From an uncultured Lachnospiraceae bacterium (lineage in GTDB: Bacteria; Bacillota; Clostridia; Lachnospirales; Lachnospiraceae): DNA of 64,000 nt. Position 1 is the stretch's first letter, and the number at the start of each line of letters is the position of its first letter. The translations under genes were made by a program, and so were the position numbers. The stretch spans positions 78,508 to 142,507 of the forward strand of contig CATLHM010000008.1 of the NCBI GenBank assembly GCA_949949005.1. The letters are read 5' to 3'. Positions 11,433-57,167 of this stretch are shown here, in pieces. A model generated the notes under the pieces. It did no database searches. It had not been told where the DNA came from and saw nothing but the letters and a program-made list of their open reading frames with translations.

Positions 11433-11530
11433 CCTCCTTACCAGCGGTGAAGTGATAAGGAATCCTCCCACTTCGTGGGCCCCTCCTTACCAGCGGTGAA
11501 GTGATAAGGAATCCTCCCACTTCGTGGGCC
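11433..11530 (-). repeat. 49-bp tandem repeat (two full copies, partial third) containing a Shine-Dalgarno
   Basis: Unit CCTCCTTACCAGCGGTGAAGTGATAAGGAATCCTCCCACTTCGTGGGCC at 11433 and 11482; partial CCTCCTTACC at 11531. Confidence 0.95.
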
Positions 11531-12856: not shown

Positions 12857-14200
12857 ATGAAAAAGAATTATCTGAAATATATCCTGCCTTCCATGCTTTC
12901 CTTTTTGCTCACAGGAATTTATTCCATTGTGGACGGGATTTTTGTGGGACGGGCCATGGGGGATCCGGGGCTTGCCGCCATCAACATTGCATGGCCTCTG
13001 GTTGCCCTGATCATCTCCCTGGGAACCGGTATCGGTATGGGGGCGGCTGTGATTGTGTCCTTAAGCAGAGGGGCCGGAAATGAAAAAAAGGCCCTGCTGG
13101 CAGAGGGGAACGCTTTCTTTCTGCTTCTTGTCAGCTCCCTTTTATTGGTTCTGCTTCTGGCTCTGGCCGGGCGCCCCCTGCTTATGCTGCTGGGGGCAGA
13201 GGGAGAGCTTCTTACTCTGGCGGAAATCTACCTGAAATTTATCCTGCTGGGCGGCATCATCCAGGTCTTTGCCACCGGCATGGTGCCCCTTATGCGCAAT
13301 CACGGCGCTTCCTTTTATTCCATGTGTGCCATGGGGCTGGGCTGTATTTTTAATATCATACTGGATTATTACTTTGTGATCATCCTCCGGCTGGGTATGA
13401 TGGGGGCGGCTCTGGCCACTGCCCTGGGGCAGATCATGACGCTGGTTTTTTGTGTTGCTTTTTATATAAGGAAGAAAAACCGCATCCCCCTCTCCGCCAT
13501 GAGGCCGGACAAAACGCTCATCCTTTCCATCCTGCGGGTAGCGGCCTCCCCCTTTGGCCTCACCTATCTGCCCTCGGTCACCATTATTTTCATGAATCTG
13601 CAGGCTCTTGCCTGGGGCGGGGAGGAAGCCGTCAGCGCCTATGCGGTGCTGGCCTACATTATCTCTTTTATGGAGCTTCTGGTTCAGGGCATCGGGGACG
13701 GAAGCCAGCCCCTGCTCTCCTTAAGCGAGGGAAAAAACGATACCAAAGCCCTGAAAACCTATTCCCGCTGGACCTTTTCCCTGGGCATCGGTTTCGGCAT
13801 TCTGGGCGCAGTCCTTTTCTTTCTGGCCCGGAACCTGCTGCCCGCCTTTTATGGCACCTCCCCAGAGGCAGCGGCCTATATTGTTTACGCCGCCCCTGCT
13901 TTCGCCCTGGTAATGGCGCTTTATGGCCTCACAAAGCCTGCGGTTTCCTATCTGTACGCCACCCACCGGGTAGGAAAATCCAGCATCCTTGTCTATGGGG
14001 AAATCCTTCTGACCTTGCTTTTTATTTACCTGCTGCCCGCCTTTCTTGGCCTGGACGGGGTCTGGTATACCATTCCGGCCGTGCAGGTGGTGCTGGCCGG
14101 GCTGTGCATCCTCTTCCTGTCAAAGACACATGCCCGCCGGGCACAAAACAACGGATGTCAGTCGGAGCCTGACATGCGTATGTTTCCAAAAAAGAGATAA
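12857..14200 (+). CDS. MATE family efflux transporter
   Basis: 12-TM; VDGIFVGRAMGDPGLAAINIAWPL, GIGMGAAVIVSLSRGAG. Confidence 0.9.
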   Translation: MKKNYLKYILPSMLSFLLTGIYSIVDGIFVGRAMGDPGLAAINIAWPLVALIISLGTGIGMGAAVIVSLSRGAGNEKKALLAEGNAFFLLLVSSLLLVLLLALAGRPLLMLLGAEGELLTLAEIYLKFILLGGIIQVFATGMVPLMRNHGASFYSMCAMGLGCIFNIILDYYFVIILRLGMMGAALATALGQIMTLVFCVAFYIRKKNRIPLSAMRPDKTLILSILRVAASPFGLTYLPSVTIIFMNLQALAWGGEEAVSAYAVLAYIISFMELLVQGIGDGSQPLLSLSEGKNDTKALKTYSRWTFSLGIGFGILGAVLFFLARNLLPAFYGTSPEAAAYIVYAAPAFALVMALYGLTKPAVSYLYATHRVGKSSILVYGEILLTLLFIYLLPAFLGLDGVWYTIPAVQVVLAGLCILFLSKTHARRAQNNGCQSEPDMRMFPKKR

Positions 14201-14252
14201 GGATGCCGGGCAGGGCCTGACATCCTTATAGCTGCAAAAATGAGTCCGTTTT

Positions 14253-24856: not shown

Positions 24857-25618
24857 TCATCCTACAACATACCTCGCCAGCTCTAACGCAATGTCAAAAT
24901 GGCCCGCATCGTGCTGGGTGCCTTTGGTCTGCCCTTCTTTCCGCCTTGCATCCCACCTGGGGGCATCAAGCAGATCGCCGCTTGTAAAAAACGCGTACAG
25001 GTTCAGTCCTCTGAAATCACACATTGCCTGCAAAGCGGCGCATTCCATTTCTACTGAAATGCAGCCGTCCGCTTTATGCTTCTCAAAGTTATTGACGGTT
25101 TCCCTATAGAAAGAATCGGTGGTCCATGTTTTTCCTTTCACGTAAGGAATCCCGTTTTCCTCCATAAAAGCGGCGACAATGTCCGCATTCCTGACAGTAA
25201 CATAGTCCGATGCGGGCGCATAATGATAGGAAGTGCCCTCATCCCGGTAAGCTTCTGTCGGCACCATAACTTTCCCGCGTGCAATTTCCTTATTCAGACA
25301 GCCTGCAGCGCCAAATACGACATATTTGCCCGTCTCTATTTCTGCCAGCGTGTCCTCCACCGTACCCACACAGGCAGGCGCCCCTACATAAGTTTTGTAA
25401 AACGCAAATTTCTTTCCCTTATATTCAATACAATATACCGGCGTATTGCCCGTTGCAAACCAGAAAGATGCAATCTGCTTGCAGTCGTAATTTTCCAGGA
25501 CAAACTTTTCAATCACATGGGAAAAGGTCAGAATACACGCATCCACCTGGGGCGCATCCTCCTTGATCTGTGGATTGATGATTGCCGGGGACTGATTGTC
25601 AAAAGCTTCTGTGATCAT
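24857..25618 (-). CDS. Nucleoside phosphorylase family protein (copy 1)
   Basis: MITEAFDNQSPAIINPQ...GAPACVGTVEDTLAEI...DGCISVEMECAALQAMCDFRG (PNP/UDP phosphorylase SVEMEC motif). Confidence 0.87.
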   Translation of the reverse strand: MITEAFDNQSPAIINPQIKEDAPQVDACILTFSHVIEKFVLENYDCKQIASFWFATGNTPVYCIEYKGKKFAFYKTYVGAPACVGTVEDTLAEIETGKYVVFGAAGCLNKEIARGKVMVPTEAYRDEGTSYHYAPASDYVTVRNADIVAAFMEENGIPYVKGKTWTTDSFYRETVNNFEKHKADGCISVEMECAALQAMCDFRGLNLYAFFTSGDLLDAPRWDARRKEGQTKGTQHDAGHFDIALELARYVVG

Positions 25619-30200: not shown

Positions 30201-30492
30201 CCTCGTAAAACTCCAGGGCCACATGGGCGCTGATCTCCCCGGTCCTCTCATAGGGCCTGTTTTCCCGCCCGGTCTTACAGCGAATATATCCCGTCAGCTT
30301 CCGCTTACCGTTCTCATGGGCCGCTTTATTGAAATAGTTGGTGGAGCAGGTTACCACGAACTGTATCGCATCCAGCAGCGTAGATTTACCCGCACCGTTT
30401 TCCCCCGAAATCAGAACGGAATTTTCAAGGTCTATCATCGCATTGGTAAACCTGTGCCAGTTAATCAGCTTCACTCTCGTCAATTTCTTCAT
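27250..30492 (-). CDS. jetC: Wadjet system protein JetC (SMC/MukB-like ATPase)
   Basis: ISGENGAGKSTLLDAIQFVVTCS Walker A, long coiled coils, KSGGETQTPFYVTVAASF signature, GLVMFDEAFNNMDDERI Walker B. Confidence 0.92.
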   Translation of the reverse strand: MKKLTRVKLINWHRFTNAMIDLENSVLISGENGAGKSTLLDAIQFVVTCSTNYFNKAAHENGKRKLTGYIRCKTGRENRPYERTGEISAHVALEFYEEKRQKYFIVGAVVDSASEGQEKTVRYLMDGERLQEEMFFQGKIPKSISQFRTGNGKKIKTWCTTEKDARQMIKNRFGRLEDKFFKLIPKAMAFRPIDDIKDFVYSYVLDEKEVNVDILRENVRTYQELQHTLDKIKLRMGRLEKIEGFHRQVEDGIHKDRMYEYFLDRIEADILTEEIRQLEDEIVHDRHRLENWNKEIGAAAKEKEQRQAIRDNLFAELASDKDFIARDEQEKRLRMLEDKQEGLRQEQLRLMESVDQAKVQVNRLLKVPDADPCIKAYCGQLEELKKAADLGGFKDTLQKVIAYKNQMSDRVYKRCAELDVMIRDLSGQKKEWDLKIENLMKKKLSYPEEVTRTAQAIREEFVRIGRTPEPRILCETLEITDETWRNAVEGYLNTQRFYILVEPDNFDIALGTYDRLRKEKRTYGVGLINTQNLEKYDTPPEGSLAQVVTSGNKYAKRYINMVLGKVMMCDHYSHLKKYKTAITKECMRYQNHVASAIRPSVFEIPYIGKNAVRVQLEQAKIKSREIEDQLKEKKRILENLEELLGPLSTETDTDIKYRVDVLTEWKNVLQEIKNCRDNIATLEKNSGMILKKIQLSELEKIIKEIEGQISGCNRRVGQTQQKIENTKGILAQKQAALVEQQALCTEDSVRYENDIVLWNHDYEKQLKDKSCEQFKDNFVRRRKANQTTIAKCTESMTNSMVEYKTAHDFGGAATLEGYGDFEAEYSKLKNSELLSYEEKVENARLSAEEEFREQFLAKLQENMKNAQTEFKELNRALKDIHFSNEKYEFLFMPSKRYRHYYEMIMDDFNAIQGESIFSGLFHESHREVIDELFERLALDNENSARALDEFTDYRTYMDYDIRILHSDDSYSLYSKVCEEKSGGETQTPFYVTVAASFVQLYRNGIGGEAVGLVMFDEAFNNMDDERIGGVLEFLRRLPLQILIAAPPDKIQYISPFVEETLLIMTDEKVSFAERYYNGAV

Positions 30493-31075
30493 TTATTTTT
30501 CCGCCCTTTTTGTAATTTTCCAGCTTTTCATATACCTGCCTGATGTCCTCCACCCGCACTGCCATCAGTATGGAGTCGTAGATAATCAGCCGGGAATCCT
30601 GGTTTGACAGCTCTTTGTCCAAAACCTCCACCAGTTGGAACCTGCGCATGGTGCTGATGGCATTCCTTAAAGTCGTCTTATCCATCATTTTATCCCGTAT
30701 TTTCAGGCTTAAAAATTTTTCATGAATGTCACCCATATTGATGATGACTTCATCGCTGACTGACAGTTCCCGCTTTTTCTCATCATACAAAATCCGCAGA
30801 ATCAACAGAATGATGGATTCAAAAAGCTTCATATTGTAGCGGTTATAATTCTGGGGATTGGTAAGCTGCACCACGCCATACTCTTCATTGATTTCCAGCC
30901 GGTAGCCGAGCACTGACAGGTACTGTGAAAACTTTTCCCTGTGCTGGGTAATGAAATAATAATCCCGTCTGGACGTCTCATTGCGTTTACATACGAAACA
31001 GCTTCCAAGGAGCCTGTTGCAGATCCGCACAAACTCGTCCTTATCCTTTTGCAGCATTCCCTCTAAAAAATCCAT
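30461..31075 (-). CDS. jetB: Wadjet system protein JetB (MukE/ScpB-like kleisin partner)
   Basis: Located between JetA and JetC; winged-helix-like small acidic protein; SD GGAGG 5 nt upstream of ATG at 31075. Confidence 0.82.
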   Translation of the reverse strand: MDFLEGMLQKDKDEFVRICNRLLGSCFVCKRNETSRRDYYFITQHREKFSQYLSVLGYRLEINEEYGVVQLTNPQNYNRYNMKLFESIILLILRILYDEKKRELSVSDEVIINMGDIHEKFLSLKIRDKMMDKTTLRNAISTMRRFQLVEVLDKELSNQDSRLIIYDSILMAVRVEDIRQVYEKLENYKKGGKINEEIDESEAD

Positions 31076-31078
31076 TTT

Positions 31079-31250
31079 AACCTCCATGCTGCCGTCAGGC
31101 AGCTCTTAAATCAGGTGGGAACTTTGTGCGGCAGCACAAATTCCCGGTTGAAAAAAGGCCGCAGGCCTTTTTTCAACCTAACCTCCATGTCGTGTTTTTG
31201 CGGCAATGTAATGCGAACTTTGCCGTCAGGCGGTTTTCAAATCAGCCTAA
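31079..31250 (-). other. Structured intergenic element between jetA and jetB (hairpins plus two ATGGAGGTTA boxes)
   Basis: 15-bp perfect stem GGTTGAAAAAAGGCC/GGCCTTTTTTCAACC at 31146-31178; ATGGAGGTTA at about 31179-31188 and 31079-31088; homologous to 43317-43452. Confidence 0.85.
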
Positions 31251-32629
31251 TGTCCATTCTTACAGATCGCATAATCCCGGAACCGGTATCCGTTTACCAC
31301 AACATCCTTACCTGCCTCTACCACATACTTCATGTTTTTTCGCTGACCATACAGCCGGATGTAAATCAGATAAACAAAGTCCTCCGTGGTCGCAAGCGGT
31401 AATTCCGACGCCATCATCCGTCCTCTGCCCTGCAGGCAGTCCAGCACATAGAGATTTATCTTTTCCGGATTCAGCACCCGCTCCATCTTTTCCATCATCT
31501 TCTTTAATTTTTTCTGCCGCAATTTTGCATCCGGCAGCTCATTTTGAAGTTCCACAGGCTTAAATTCTTTTTTCCCTTCGATAGGCACAAACAGGGATTT
31601 TTCGTCCAATACGCCCGAACTGTATATTCGGATCATTTCATCCAGAAAGGAAATGCGGTAAATGCCGCCTAACTCCATGCCCTCCGCATTGATCTTTTCG
31701 TTTACCTCCGACAGGATCTCTTTCAGTTGTCCTCTCACATCCTCGCCGCCAATCAGATAAAACTTCGCCCGGTTGATTGCCGCTTTCTGATACTGTGTAT
31801 TTTTCCGGTTGATTTCCGCCAGAATATCGTCCATGTTTTGGAAAGCATTGATAATATCATGAATGTACTGATACACCAGCTCCTGCGCCTGCTCCTTCGA
31901 AACCTCGCGGATTGCGGCAAGCTCCGCACTGGCCTTCTCAATATAGGCTTTGTTGCGGCTCTTGCTCTCCAGACGTTCCACAATCTCCGGCCGGAATTTG
32001 GACACGTTATCGGAGGTCAGAAGACGATGATAGGCTTTGTCCACGATATTCTCGATATAATCATTAAACAGCACATCCATGATTTCTGCCGGCGTCCTGT
32101 ACTTCGTGAGCTCATCTATGTAATGCTTGATACCGGAATTTAAGTTTTTCAGTCCTGTAATCAGCATATCCGTATTTTCAAGAATGGATAACAGCACAAT
32201 TCCCGGATTATCCGTATTGCTGCGCACCAGGCTGTAGATGGTGTAAATGTACCCCTGATATTCGATCTGTTTCCCCTCCTCAATTTCCAGAAGGGTCTTG
32301 ATCATTTTTACGGCGTATTCCTGAAAGCCCGCCCGCTGTACATAGCTTTTATCCGTTTCAATCTCGATCCACCCGTAATATTCCAGCCTTCGCAGCATCC
32401 AGTTAGCCTTGTCACGGCTGTTCTTACCGTCAAATTCCTCTTCTTCTATGGCAAGCGCCTGTTCCTGGTCAAAGTAATACTGCAATTCCTGCACCAGAAT
32501 ATCTCTTTCCACACCAAAAGAAAGCTGATGGTTCATAACCGAAAACAGCTTGATCAGGCACTCCCAATAGATCGCTTTATTGGGAGAAGCCAGCGGTACA
32601 AAAAAATTTTCCGGGATAACCTGAAACAT
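31247..32629 (-). CDS. jetA: Wadjet system protein JetA family (DUF5716-like kleisin)
   Basis: MFQVIPENFFVPLASPNKAIYWECLIKLFSVMNHQLSFGVERDILVQELQYYF; first gene of the jetABCD operon. Confidence 0.87.
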   Translation of the reverse strand: MFQVIPENFFVPLASPNKAIYWECLIKLFSVMNHQLSFGVERDILVQELQYYFDQEQALAIEEEEFDGKNSRDKANWMLRRLEYYGWIEIETDKSYVQRAGFQEYAVKMIKTLLEIEEGKQIEYQGYIYTIYSLVRSNTDNPGIVLLSILENTDMLITGLKNLNSGIKHYIDELTKYRTPAEIMDVLFNDYIENIVDKAYHRLLTSDNVSKFRPEIVERLESKSRNKAYIEKASAELAAIREVSKEQAQELVYQYIHDIINAFQNMDDILAEINRKNTQYQKAAINRAKFYLIGGEDVRGQLKEILSEVNEKINAEGMELGGIYRISFLDEMIRIYSSGVLDEKSLFVPIEGKKEFKPVELQNELPDAKLRQKKLKKMMEKMERVLNPEKINLYVLDCLQGRGRMMASELPLATTEDFVYLIYIRLYGQRKNMKYVVEAGKDVVVNGYRFRDYAICKNGH

Positions 32630-32715
32630 GTGTGCCTCCATAGCATGGAACTGCCCTTTTCCGGCAGCCCTCAAATATATTGTGAACGATGGATTATTTT
32701 ATTTCCAGATCTTTG

Positions 32716-34962: not shown

Positions 34963-35727
34963 TTCCCCTCCGCCACATACCGTGCCAATTCCAGTGCAAT
35001 GTCAAAATGTCCCGCATCGTGTTGGGTGCCTTTCGTCTGACCTTCCTTTTGCCTCGTATCCCATTTGGGAGCATCAAGCAAATCGCCGCTTGTAAAAAAT
35101 GTATACAAATTCAGTCCTCTGAAATCACACATTGCCTGCAAAGCGGCACATTCCATTTCTACGGAAATGCAACCGTCCGCTTTACGCTTTTCAAAGTTAT
35201 GAACGGTTTCCCTGTAAAAAGAATCAGTGGTCCACGTTTTTCCTTTCACATAGGGAATCCCGTTTTCCTCCATAAAAGCGGCAACAATATCCGCGTTTCT
35301 CACCTCTATATAATCCGACGCAGGCGCATAATGATAGGAAGTGCCTTCATCCCGCCAGGCTTGCGTGGGTATCATGACTTTTCCGTGTGCAATTTCCTTA
35401 TTCAGACAACCCGCACCGCCAAATACGATATATTTATCCGTCTTTATTTCCGCAAGCGTATCCTCCACCGTACCGACACACGCAGGAGCTCCTACATAAG
35501 TTTTGTAAAATGCGAATTTCTTTCCTTTATAATCCATACCATAAATCGGCGTATTGCCCGTTGCAAACCAAAATGACGCAATCTGTCTGCAATCGTAATT
35601 TTCCAGAACAAATTTTTCAATCACATGGGAAAAAGTCAGTATACACCCATCGAACTGTGGTACATTTTCCTTAATTTGCGGATTGATGATTGCCGGGGAC
35701 TGATTGTCAAAAGCCTCTGTTATCATG
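34959..35727 (-). CDS. Nucleoside phosphorylase family protein (copy 2)
   Basis: Roughly 90% identical by eye to the protein at 24857-25618; GCISVEMECAALQAM motif. Confidence 0.87.
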
Positions 35728-43164: not shown

Positions 43165-43316
43165 AGATGAAAGGATAAAACTATGAGCTGATACTTTGTA
43201 TTGGCTCATGTTTTATTTCAAAAATATGTGAGGTGGAAGATGGCATTAGAATATGTTACGCTACACCACAAAGAGAGCAGCCGTATGATTACGGCTAAGT
43301 TTTAAGGAGAATCATA

Positions 43317-43452
43317 GGTTGAAAATAAGCCTGATGGCTTATTTTCAACCAGCAATGTGTGCCGCAAGCGGCCCGCATTGAATCGCAGATGCGAAACCGC
43401 CTACGCGGCTTTCGCATCGCGTTGCCGCAAAAAACGCGTCATGGAGGTTAAT
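43317..43452 (+). other. Structured intergenic element upstream of the methyltransferase (three hairpins plus ATGGAGGTTA)
   Basis: Perfect 15-bp stem GGTTGAAAATAAGCC/GGCTTATTTTCAACC, then two further hairpins, then TTGCCGCAAAAAACGCGTCATGGAGGTTAATATG. Confidence 0.85.
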
Positions 43453-44151
43453 ATGCAATCGTCTGAAGAATACATGCAGAATTTACGACAATGGCTTCAG
43501 GATACAGCAGATTCCCCGCTGGAGGAAATGTCTGACTTTTTTACCAAGCGGCTGTACGGTTATGAAGAACATATGTCAATCTGGGAGGAATCTTATCGGA
43601 TATTTGCCGAAATCTTACCTTTGGATTGTCAAAAAATTTTAGACTTAGGTTGCGGAACCGGGTTAGAATTAGACAGGATATGGCAGAAAAATCCAGGCCT
43701 TCAGGTAACCGGCGTAGACTTATGCGAACCTATGCTGGACAAACTGCTTGAAAAACATCACGATAAGCCCCTTACCACAGTAGTCCAGGATTATTTCCAA
43801 TACGATTTGGGATGTTGCAAATGGGATGCCGTTATTTCCTTCGAAAGCCTGCATCACTTCCTGCCCCGGCGCAAAAAGGAATTGTACCGGAAAATCTACT
43901 GCAGCCTGAAGGGAAAGGGCGTTTTTATATTGGGAGACTATATTGCCTGCTGTGACGAAGAAGAGCAGCTTCTGCGTAATATATACCTGCAAAAAAGAAA
44001 GCAGTCAGCAATACCGGATCCTTGTTATGTACATTTTGATATTCCCCTGACTCTGGATCATGAAATAGAATTATTGCGAAACGCAGGATTCATAATAGAA
44101 AAAATATTGAATGGCAGCGCCACAATTATTTTAGCCAGAAAAGGAGCCTGA
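43453..44151 (+). CDS. Class I SAM-dependent methyltransferase
   Basis: KILDLGCGTGLELDRIWQKNPGLQVTGVDLCEPML. Confidence 0.9.
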   Translation: MQSSEEYMQNLRQWLQDTADSPLEEMSDFFTKRLYGYEEHMSIWEESYRIFAEILPLDCQKILDLGCGTGLELDRIWQKNPGLQVTGVDLCEPMLDKLLEKHHDKPLTTVVQDYFQYDLGCCKWDAVISFESLHHFLPRRKKELYRKIYCSLKGKGVFILGDYIACCDEEEQLLRNIYLQKRKQSAIPDPCYVHFDIPLTLDHEIELLRNAGFIIEKILNGSATIILARKGA

Positions 44152-56955: not shown

Positions 56956-57055
56956 AGTTCCCCCTTTCAACCCGTTGTCAGATCTTCCCTTTTATTATAA
57001 ACGCCGCCCGGCCTCACTGTCAAAAAATATTCCTTTGCAATGCTGCAGCCCAAAA

Positions 57056-57167
57056 CAACGGATGTCCAGCTTCGCCAGACTTCCTTATGTTTCAACAACG
57101 GATGTCCGGCTTTGCCAGACTTTCTTATGTTTCAACAACGGATGCCAGACTTCTCCAAACATCCTTA
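57056..57167. repeat. 40-bp tandem hairpin-containing repeat (two full copies, one diverged partial)
   Basis: GATGTCCAGCTTCGCCAGACTTCCTTATGTTTCAACAACG at 57061, 57101 and diverged at 57141; each contains GTCYGGC/GCCAGAC stem. Confidence 0.9.

Follow-up and report, generated by a model that had tools for sequence, protein, structure and literature searches.

The window, a stretch of 64,000 nucleotides from an uncultured Lachnospiraceae bacterium, carries on its minus strand the jet genes of a genuine type I Wadjet system, with jetA at 31247-32674 and jetB at 30461-31075. The intergenic stretch that runs from the jetA stop (31247) to the jetB ATG (31075-31073) is built from two repeat units and has an MFE z-score of -5.4. 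Directly 3' of the jetA stop lies a 5'-truncated, degraded older copy of a repeat that we refer to as a cassette (31179-31246, minus strand), which retains the hairpin III region, the tail and the Shine-Dalgarno (SD) sequence ATGGAGGTTA; when aligned to the common cassette type of this genome, it matches the hairpin III and tail portion, GATGCGAAACCGCC..CGCATCGCGTTGCCGCAAAAAACGCGGCATGGAGGTTA, of full copies. Immediately behind the SD of this remnant stands a complete 101-nt cassette of the jetB type (31078-31178, minus strand), to which two loci (L142 and L139b) in the genome G021 are closely related. Its order is hairpin I, hairpin II, tail and ATGGAGGTTA, followed by the AA-ATG of jetB. Hairpin I, at the 5' end (31146-31178), has a perfect 15-bp stem, hairpin II (31117-31145) folds as GGGAATTTGTGC-TGCC-GCACAAAGTTCCC, and the GGAGG that serves as the SD of jetB (31081-31085) belongs to the cassette. 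The sequence-only reading had described a structured element between jetA and jetB that supplies the jetB SD, and its quoted sequences and perfect hairpin were confirmed; what it had taken for two units bracketing two hairpins is instead a truncated older copy (31246-31179) and a separate complete cassette (31178-31078).

Here, as in most cassette tails, the arrangement ATGGAGG-N5-ATG places an in-frame ATG (31085-31087) within the SD, 12 nt before the true start, so that ORF calling puts the start of jetB at 31087, where a longer in-frame ORF begins within the tail, and not at 31075. Similar miscalls are likely in many other Lachnospirales genes.

The window holds a further complete cassette, of 134 nt, on the plus strand at 43317-43450, with hairpins I, II and III, the tail and the SD ATGGAGGTTA (MFE z-score of -6.5 for 43310-43460). 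It precedes a methyltransferase-domain gene (43453-44151, plus strand) that would be read from the cassette-borne SD, and the native SD of that gene, AAGGAGAATCATA, has been left behind on the far side of the insertion (43304-43316). Hairpin III of this copy (43388-43418) has no counterpart in the jetB cassette, and the two are thus different variants. A homologous element before an unrelated gene had indeed been proposed for this position, together with stem substitutions compensated on both arms (AAGGCC/GGCCTT versus TAAGCC/GGCTTA); these substitutions are real, although the comparison was made between different variants. Other repeats of the window are a 300-nt direct repeat of 87% identity (24867-25166 and 34975-35274), an interspersed repeat in paired copies (ACAACGGATGTC..GCCTGACAT/GCCAGACTT..; 14141-14239 and 57048-57138) and a 49-nt unit perfectly duplicated in tandem (11433-11530).

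A repeat family at translation starts

In the 3.0-Mb draft genome we counted 26 occurrences of the motif CATGGAGGTTA and 2 of a reversed control. The pattern of hairpin I is found at 7 loci and its control at none, so these repeats are not due to chance. A covariance model built from ten own-genome copies (mean column identity 94%) gave 22 matches in the same draft genome at E<2e-7, 12 of them above 118 bits. The same model detected the cassette in 15 of 36 congeners and, outside the genus, in one genome from another family of the order (G043) and in none of the other 23. With a second model, based on 36 diverse copies, it was found in 14 of 295 Lachnospirales genomes, counting our own, and in none of 299 genomes drawn from the phylum apart from our own; the filters in both of these scans were strict, and the counts are lower bounds. 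Since we estimated that a 16-mer from the tail would match 264 Gb of sequence about 120 times by chance, we kept only matches with a start codon behind them, and among the matches listed the named records were mostly Lachnospiraceae (Eisenbergiella, Parablautia, Roseburia, Acetatifactor and others). Neither the plasmid nor the phage collections contained a cassette match, the window and 16 related loci matched none of the 4227 Rfam families, and the open literature that we searched, a coverage that leaves out most subscription journals, holds no description of such a family. The cassettes, ∼90-140 nt long, form a repeat family that, within our sampling, is limited to the Lachnospirales. At one locus of the own genome (L003) a cousin with the head GTGTAAAAAATTTATTTTTCACAC.. 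lies directly 3' of a cassette tail, and at L384 in G155 a head GTGTGAAAAATCC.. is likewise found directly behind one.

The members of the family share a position. In 124 of 144 distinct copies, compared with 11% of random windows, an ATG lies within 16 nt 3' of the cassette and begins an ORF that spans 50 codons or more, or that continues to the end of the fetched stretch, and several of the remaining 20 have GTG or TTG starts or another cassette next to them. On the other side, the left flank has an SD match of at least 5 nt in 54 of 104 copies (6 of 104 at a control distance). The left junction has the form ...SD...A|G with a native SD-to-junction distance that varies between 1 and 8 nt (mode 3). 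The distance from the cassette SD to the ATG is by contrast nearly fixed, at 5-6 nt in 72 of 85 copies versus 34 of 59 for the native spacing (p = 0.0005), which could partly reflect selection on SD spacing. Copies collected with the hairpin II motif alone, a search over genus matches and loci already fetched that avoids selecting by the tail, showed tail, SD and start codon in 49 of 50 distinct matches. Nearly all mapped copies are in the sense orientation at initiation regions, and the genes downstream are unrelated to each other: they include adk, aroQ, glycosidases, regulators, ABC transporters and a recombinase.

Both cassette ends resemble parts of an initiation region. The 3' end, ATGGAGGNNA, is an SD, and the 5' end, G-N-NTG-AA at the foot of a hairpin, resembles a start codon; 97 of 111 copies have an NTG near the first bases of the head. 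We rejected the idea that this NTG opens a conserved leader peptide, as the frame is not kept (e.g. MKNQLE* in G383); initiation of a short peptide there from the native SD may nevertheless persist.

Empty sites, decay and tandem copies

The adk gene provides the clearest comparison of occupied and empty alleles. In G004 the site reads ATGAGAGGGAAATCA, the 134-nt cassette, then GG-ATGAAAATAATT, and in G009 and G014, which are ∼91-92% identical over the surrounding 464 nt, the empty sites read ATGAGAGGGAAATCAGG-ATG and ATGAGAGGGAAATCATA-ATG, respectively. The junction is therefore AGAGGGAAATCA|GG-ATG (or TA-ATG) without the cassette and AGAGGGAAATCA, 134 nt, GG-ATG with it, and, a 1-nt ambiguity aside, the insertion neither duplicated nor removed any bases. 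The recombinase gene in G158 gives the same picture at lower identity. The jetA-jetB junction is a third orthologous site at which occupied and empty alleles coexist, as expected of a mobile repeat: in nine loci the own copy has its cassette, G004 has a different variant after ...AAGAAGGAGCA, and seven have none. The presence of two different variants at a single junction indicates separate insertion events, and from the seven loci without a cassette it is clear that the element does not belong to the Wadjet system. In the G004 copy (L447), the cassette head GTGTGA provides the jetA stop codon (..AAG GAG CAA GTG TGA).

It had been suggested that the element might set JetA:JetB:JetC stoichiometry as a riboregulator. 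With most related Wadjet loci lacking the cassette, one sister carrying a different variant and the family standing before unrelated host genes, a JetA:JetB regulator is not what these data describe. The other suggestion of the sequence-only reading, a mobile intergenic cassette targeting SD sites, is strongly supported by the many copies, the clean empty sites, the native SD to the left, the start codon to the right and the independent insertions. That reading had also named outcomes that would speak against it, namely no further copies with covarying stems, no bias to start codons or an origin as debris of a known transposon, and none of these occurred; the covariance-model search that it proposed returned additional copies whose stems covary.

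When loci selected by their tails are aligned, their 5' ends fall at many positions. We examined the left flanks of 94 such loci with a start codon behind. Full copies have a left SD match of at least 4 nt in 24 of 25 cases, compared with 10-12 of 25 in controls, and in three classes of truncated copies the left SD match is the same as in controls. Hence truncation follows insertion and takes the native SD with it, and the retention of the tail SD while the body erodes is the pattern expected from selection on the tail SD alone. Retrotransposition with 5' truncation of the LINE kind was rejected on the same grounds, as the truncated copies are without the left SD, and no 5'-truncated new insertion at an intact target site was found.

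Some cassettes are arranged in tandem. At five loci (L094, L095, L113, L130 and L410) rare variants of the SD-tail are common to both sides of the inner copy, while the bodies differ, which simple cut-and-paste does not account for and which suggests conversion between neighboring tails or copying of the target SD. A target-site duplication was considered and discarded: the excess agreement of left with right tails over permuted pairs comes mainly from the tandem copies.

Hairpins and a pseudoknot

Over 36 copies, 96.5% of 1579 cells in the hairpin stems are paired, and both sides have changed in 22 of 44 pairs, with 137 such cells compared with 33 in shuffled and at most 16 in slid controls. 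All three hairpins covary. In addition, the loop of hairpin II pairs with bases just upstream of the new SD to form a pseudoknot that had gone unnoticed. Its helix is CCGAAGCG/CGCUUCGG in the main type and CCGGAGCG/CGCUCCGG, UGCCGAGC/GCUCGGCA or GACGAGC/GCUCGUC in other variants, and ends 0-5 nt before the (A)TGGAGG. Summed over 15 variants, the helix length is 95, compared with 59.4 when partners are permuted (highest value 77 in 5000 permutations); because these variants were hand-picked and are related, we regard this as strong support and not as a formal p-value. In the jetB cassette the helix is UGCUGCCG/CGGCAGCA, the 5' strand being the apex of hairpin II, TGCTGCCG (31136-31129), and the 3' strand (31087-31094, minus strand) abutting the SD. 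The latter strand can alternatively form a local hairpin with 31103-31098, and a two-state switch between pseudoknot and hairpin is possible on the predicted folds.

A structure kept as RNA should tolerate G.U pairs far more than A.C mismatches. In hairpins I-III of 101 copies we counted 52 G.U and 56 A.C cells, and such paired substitutions are symmetric, as for palindromes that are kept or corrected in DNA. This points to upkeep of the hairpins at the DNA level, e.g. by ssDNA or cruciform recognition or by template-switch correction of imperfect palindromes. Only the pseudoknot helix, with 41 G.U and 9 A.C cells (cells being non-independent events), looks RNA-like. The earlier proposal of selection on RNA or ssDNA structure can therefore be retained in part, reasonable as an RNA inference for the pseudoknot and insecure as one for the hairpins.

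Probable mobilization and possible consequences for host genes

With the repeat family, its position, the empty sites, the structure and the asymmetric decay established, we consider that the cassettes are probably non-autonomous mobile DNA elements aimed at translation-start regions. A cassette would insert between the native SD of a gene and its start codon, typically 2-3 nt 5' of the latter, with no duplication or loss at the target. The joined cassette ends, seen as GGAGGNNA-GNNTGAA in tandem copies, would mimic a translation-initiation region, such that an SD and a start remain on both sides after insertion. A recombinase or transposase acting in trans may recognize the hairpin palindromes, perhaps in single-stranded DNA. 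Translation of the host gene would then pass to the tail SD, from which the pseudoknot would keep the structured body clear, and the 5' part would erode later since selection acts on the SD only. As insertions stand before unrelated host genes including adk and aroQ, the cassette presumably must permit translation; that host-gene translation is maintained is likewise suggested by the conserved SDs and by insertions before essential-type genes such as adk.

Several known systems share some of these properties. ERIC and Correia-type elements are also mobile hairpin elements of about 100-150 nt that end up in transcripts, although we know of no SD delivery or start-codon targeting by them. Cis-regulatory RNAs of Rfam resemble the cassette in their leader location and in having a conserved structure and pseudoknot beside the SD; unlike them, the cassette is mobile, has no consistent gene function downstream and matches no family. 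Like MITEs and the BOX, RUP and SPRITE elements (PMC3049150), the cassettes, which are close to the pneumococcal repeats in size, are short, mostly non-coding, structured and interspersed, insert into one another, spread parasitically over unrelated genes and are thought to be mobilized in trans. BOX and RUP of Streptococcus pneumoniae end in inverted repeats, duplicate their target and show an excess between convergent genes (PMC3049150), whereas the cassette has neither inverted termini nor a duplication, sits between SD and start and brings its own SD. A cassette shares with MITEs of the DDE type its shortness, non-autonomy and multiple copies; however, its 5' GGTTGAA.. and 3' ..GGAGGTTA are not mutually inverted, and the empty adk and recombinase sites have only the 1-nt ambiguity in place of a target-site duplication.

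The IS200/IS605-derived PATEs and the REP/REPIN elements come closer, with terminal hairpins, no target duplication and a target-like right end, but they differ in their Y1 gene association and GT[AG]G foot, which the cassette lacks, and the cassette lies at translation starts and has an internal pseudoknot. A non-autonomous derivative of an IS200/IS605 (HUH Y1) element, with single-stranded DNA hairpins at its ends and a right end equal to the target, would explain the terminal hairpin, the duplication-free junction and the likeness of the left-flank motif (SD..A) to the right end. The end architecture of IS200/IS605 is described in PMC6006769; in the cassette we see a hairpin at the 5' end, an SD-like target and right end and a clean junction, and no guide-tetranucleotide pairing was identified. 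However, no Y1_Tnp is found in G121 (100% complete, at least 11 copies) or G155 (99% complete, at least 11 copies, ∼95% identical on average), it is likewise missing from G021, G008 and G002, and none of 30 Y1 genes has a cassette in its fetched flanks. No mobilizing protein was found, and Y1 genes do not track the cassette; a Y1 transposase is an unlikely mobilizer, the derivative as a whole is improbable, and IS200/IS605-type ends serve as the nearest mechanistic analogy, one for which the enzyme test failed.

Two further explanations place the function or the movement in RNA. A cis-acting riboregulator, in which leader hairpins and pseudoknot sense a signal or tune access to the new SD and copies are kept for regulation, would suit the conservation of the pseudoknot in 15 variants so close to the SD region, its tolerance of wobble pairs and the competing local hairpin in the jetB cassette. 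We nevertheless think it unlikely, given the unrelated downstream genes, the few copies common to different species, the absence of an RNA-type wobble preference in hairpins I-III, the loss of the body while the SD persists, and the lack of an Rfam match. Movement as RNA, by insertion into an mRNA near the start codon followed by reverse transcription and recombination, would account for the sense orientation of nearly all mapped copies at initiation regions, the restriction to leaders, the duplication-free junctions and the RNA-like pseudoknot. Selection alone can explain the orientation, however, the hairpin substitutions are symmetric and DNA-like, truncated copies without the left SD give no sign of 5'-truncated insertions, and no reverse transcriptase has so far been linked to the cassette, leaving this route unlikely. 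That the cassettes are ordinary debris of a known transposon end, as their short, repeated and intergenic nature might suggest, is very improbable, given that both ends are defined, that the comparison with empty sites shows clean insertion of the full-length cassette and that none of 98 heads is separated from its tail by a gene. The same 98 heads contain no autonomous long version with such a gene.

The reading of the cassettes as mobile DNA elements can be taken further, if tentatively. They may represent a new class of element that uses the translation-initiation region as its attachment site, with a DNA- or RNA-based recombination machinery swapping the cassette with any SD-start junction and so rewriting leaders genome-wide with no gene inactivated; we hold this as a possibility that falls somewhat short of an even chance.

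Small bacterial repeats are mostly tolerated where the harm they do is slight. This family targets a highly sensitive spot of the gene and persists by providing an SD. Genes, even essential ones, would on this evidence be able to gain a new 5' leader yet keep a start signal, and the family amounts to a natural collection of many genes whose SD has been replaced, as well as a source of misannotated start codons. It adds a structured family missing from Rfam, and the enzyme that mobilizes it is possibly new. Judging by the eroded tails, some of the SDs of the Lachnospirales appear to derive from mobile DNA.
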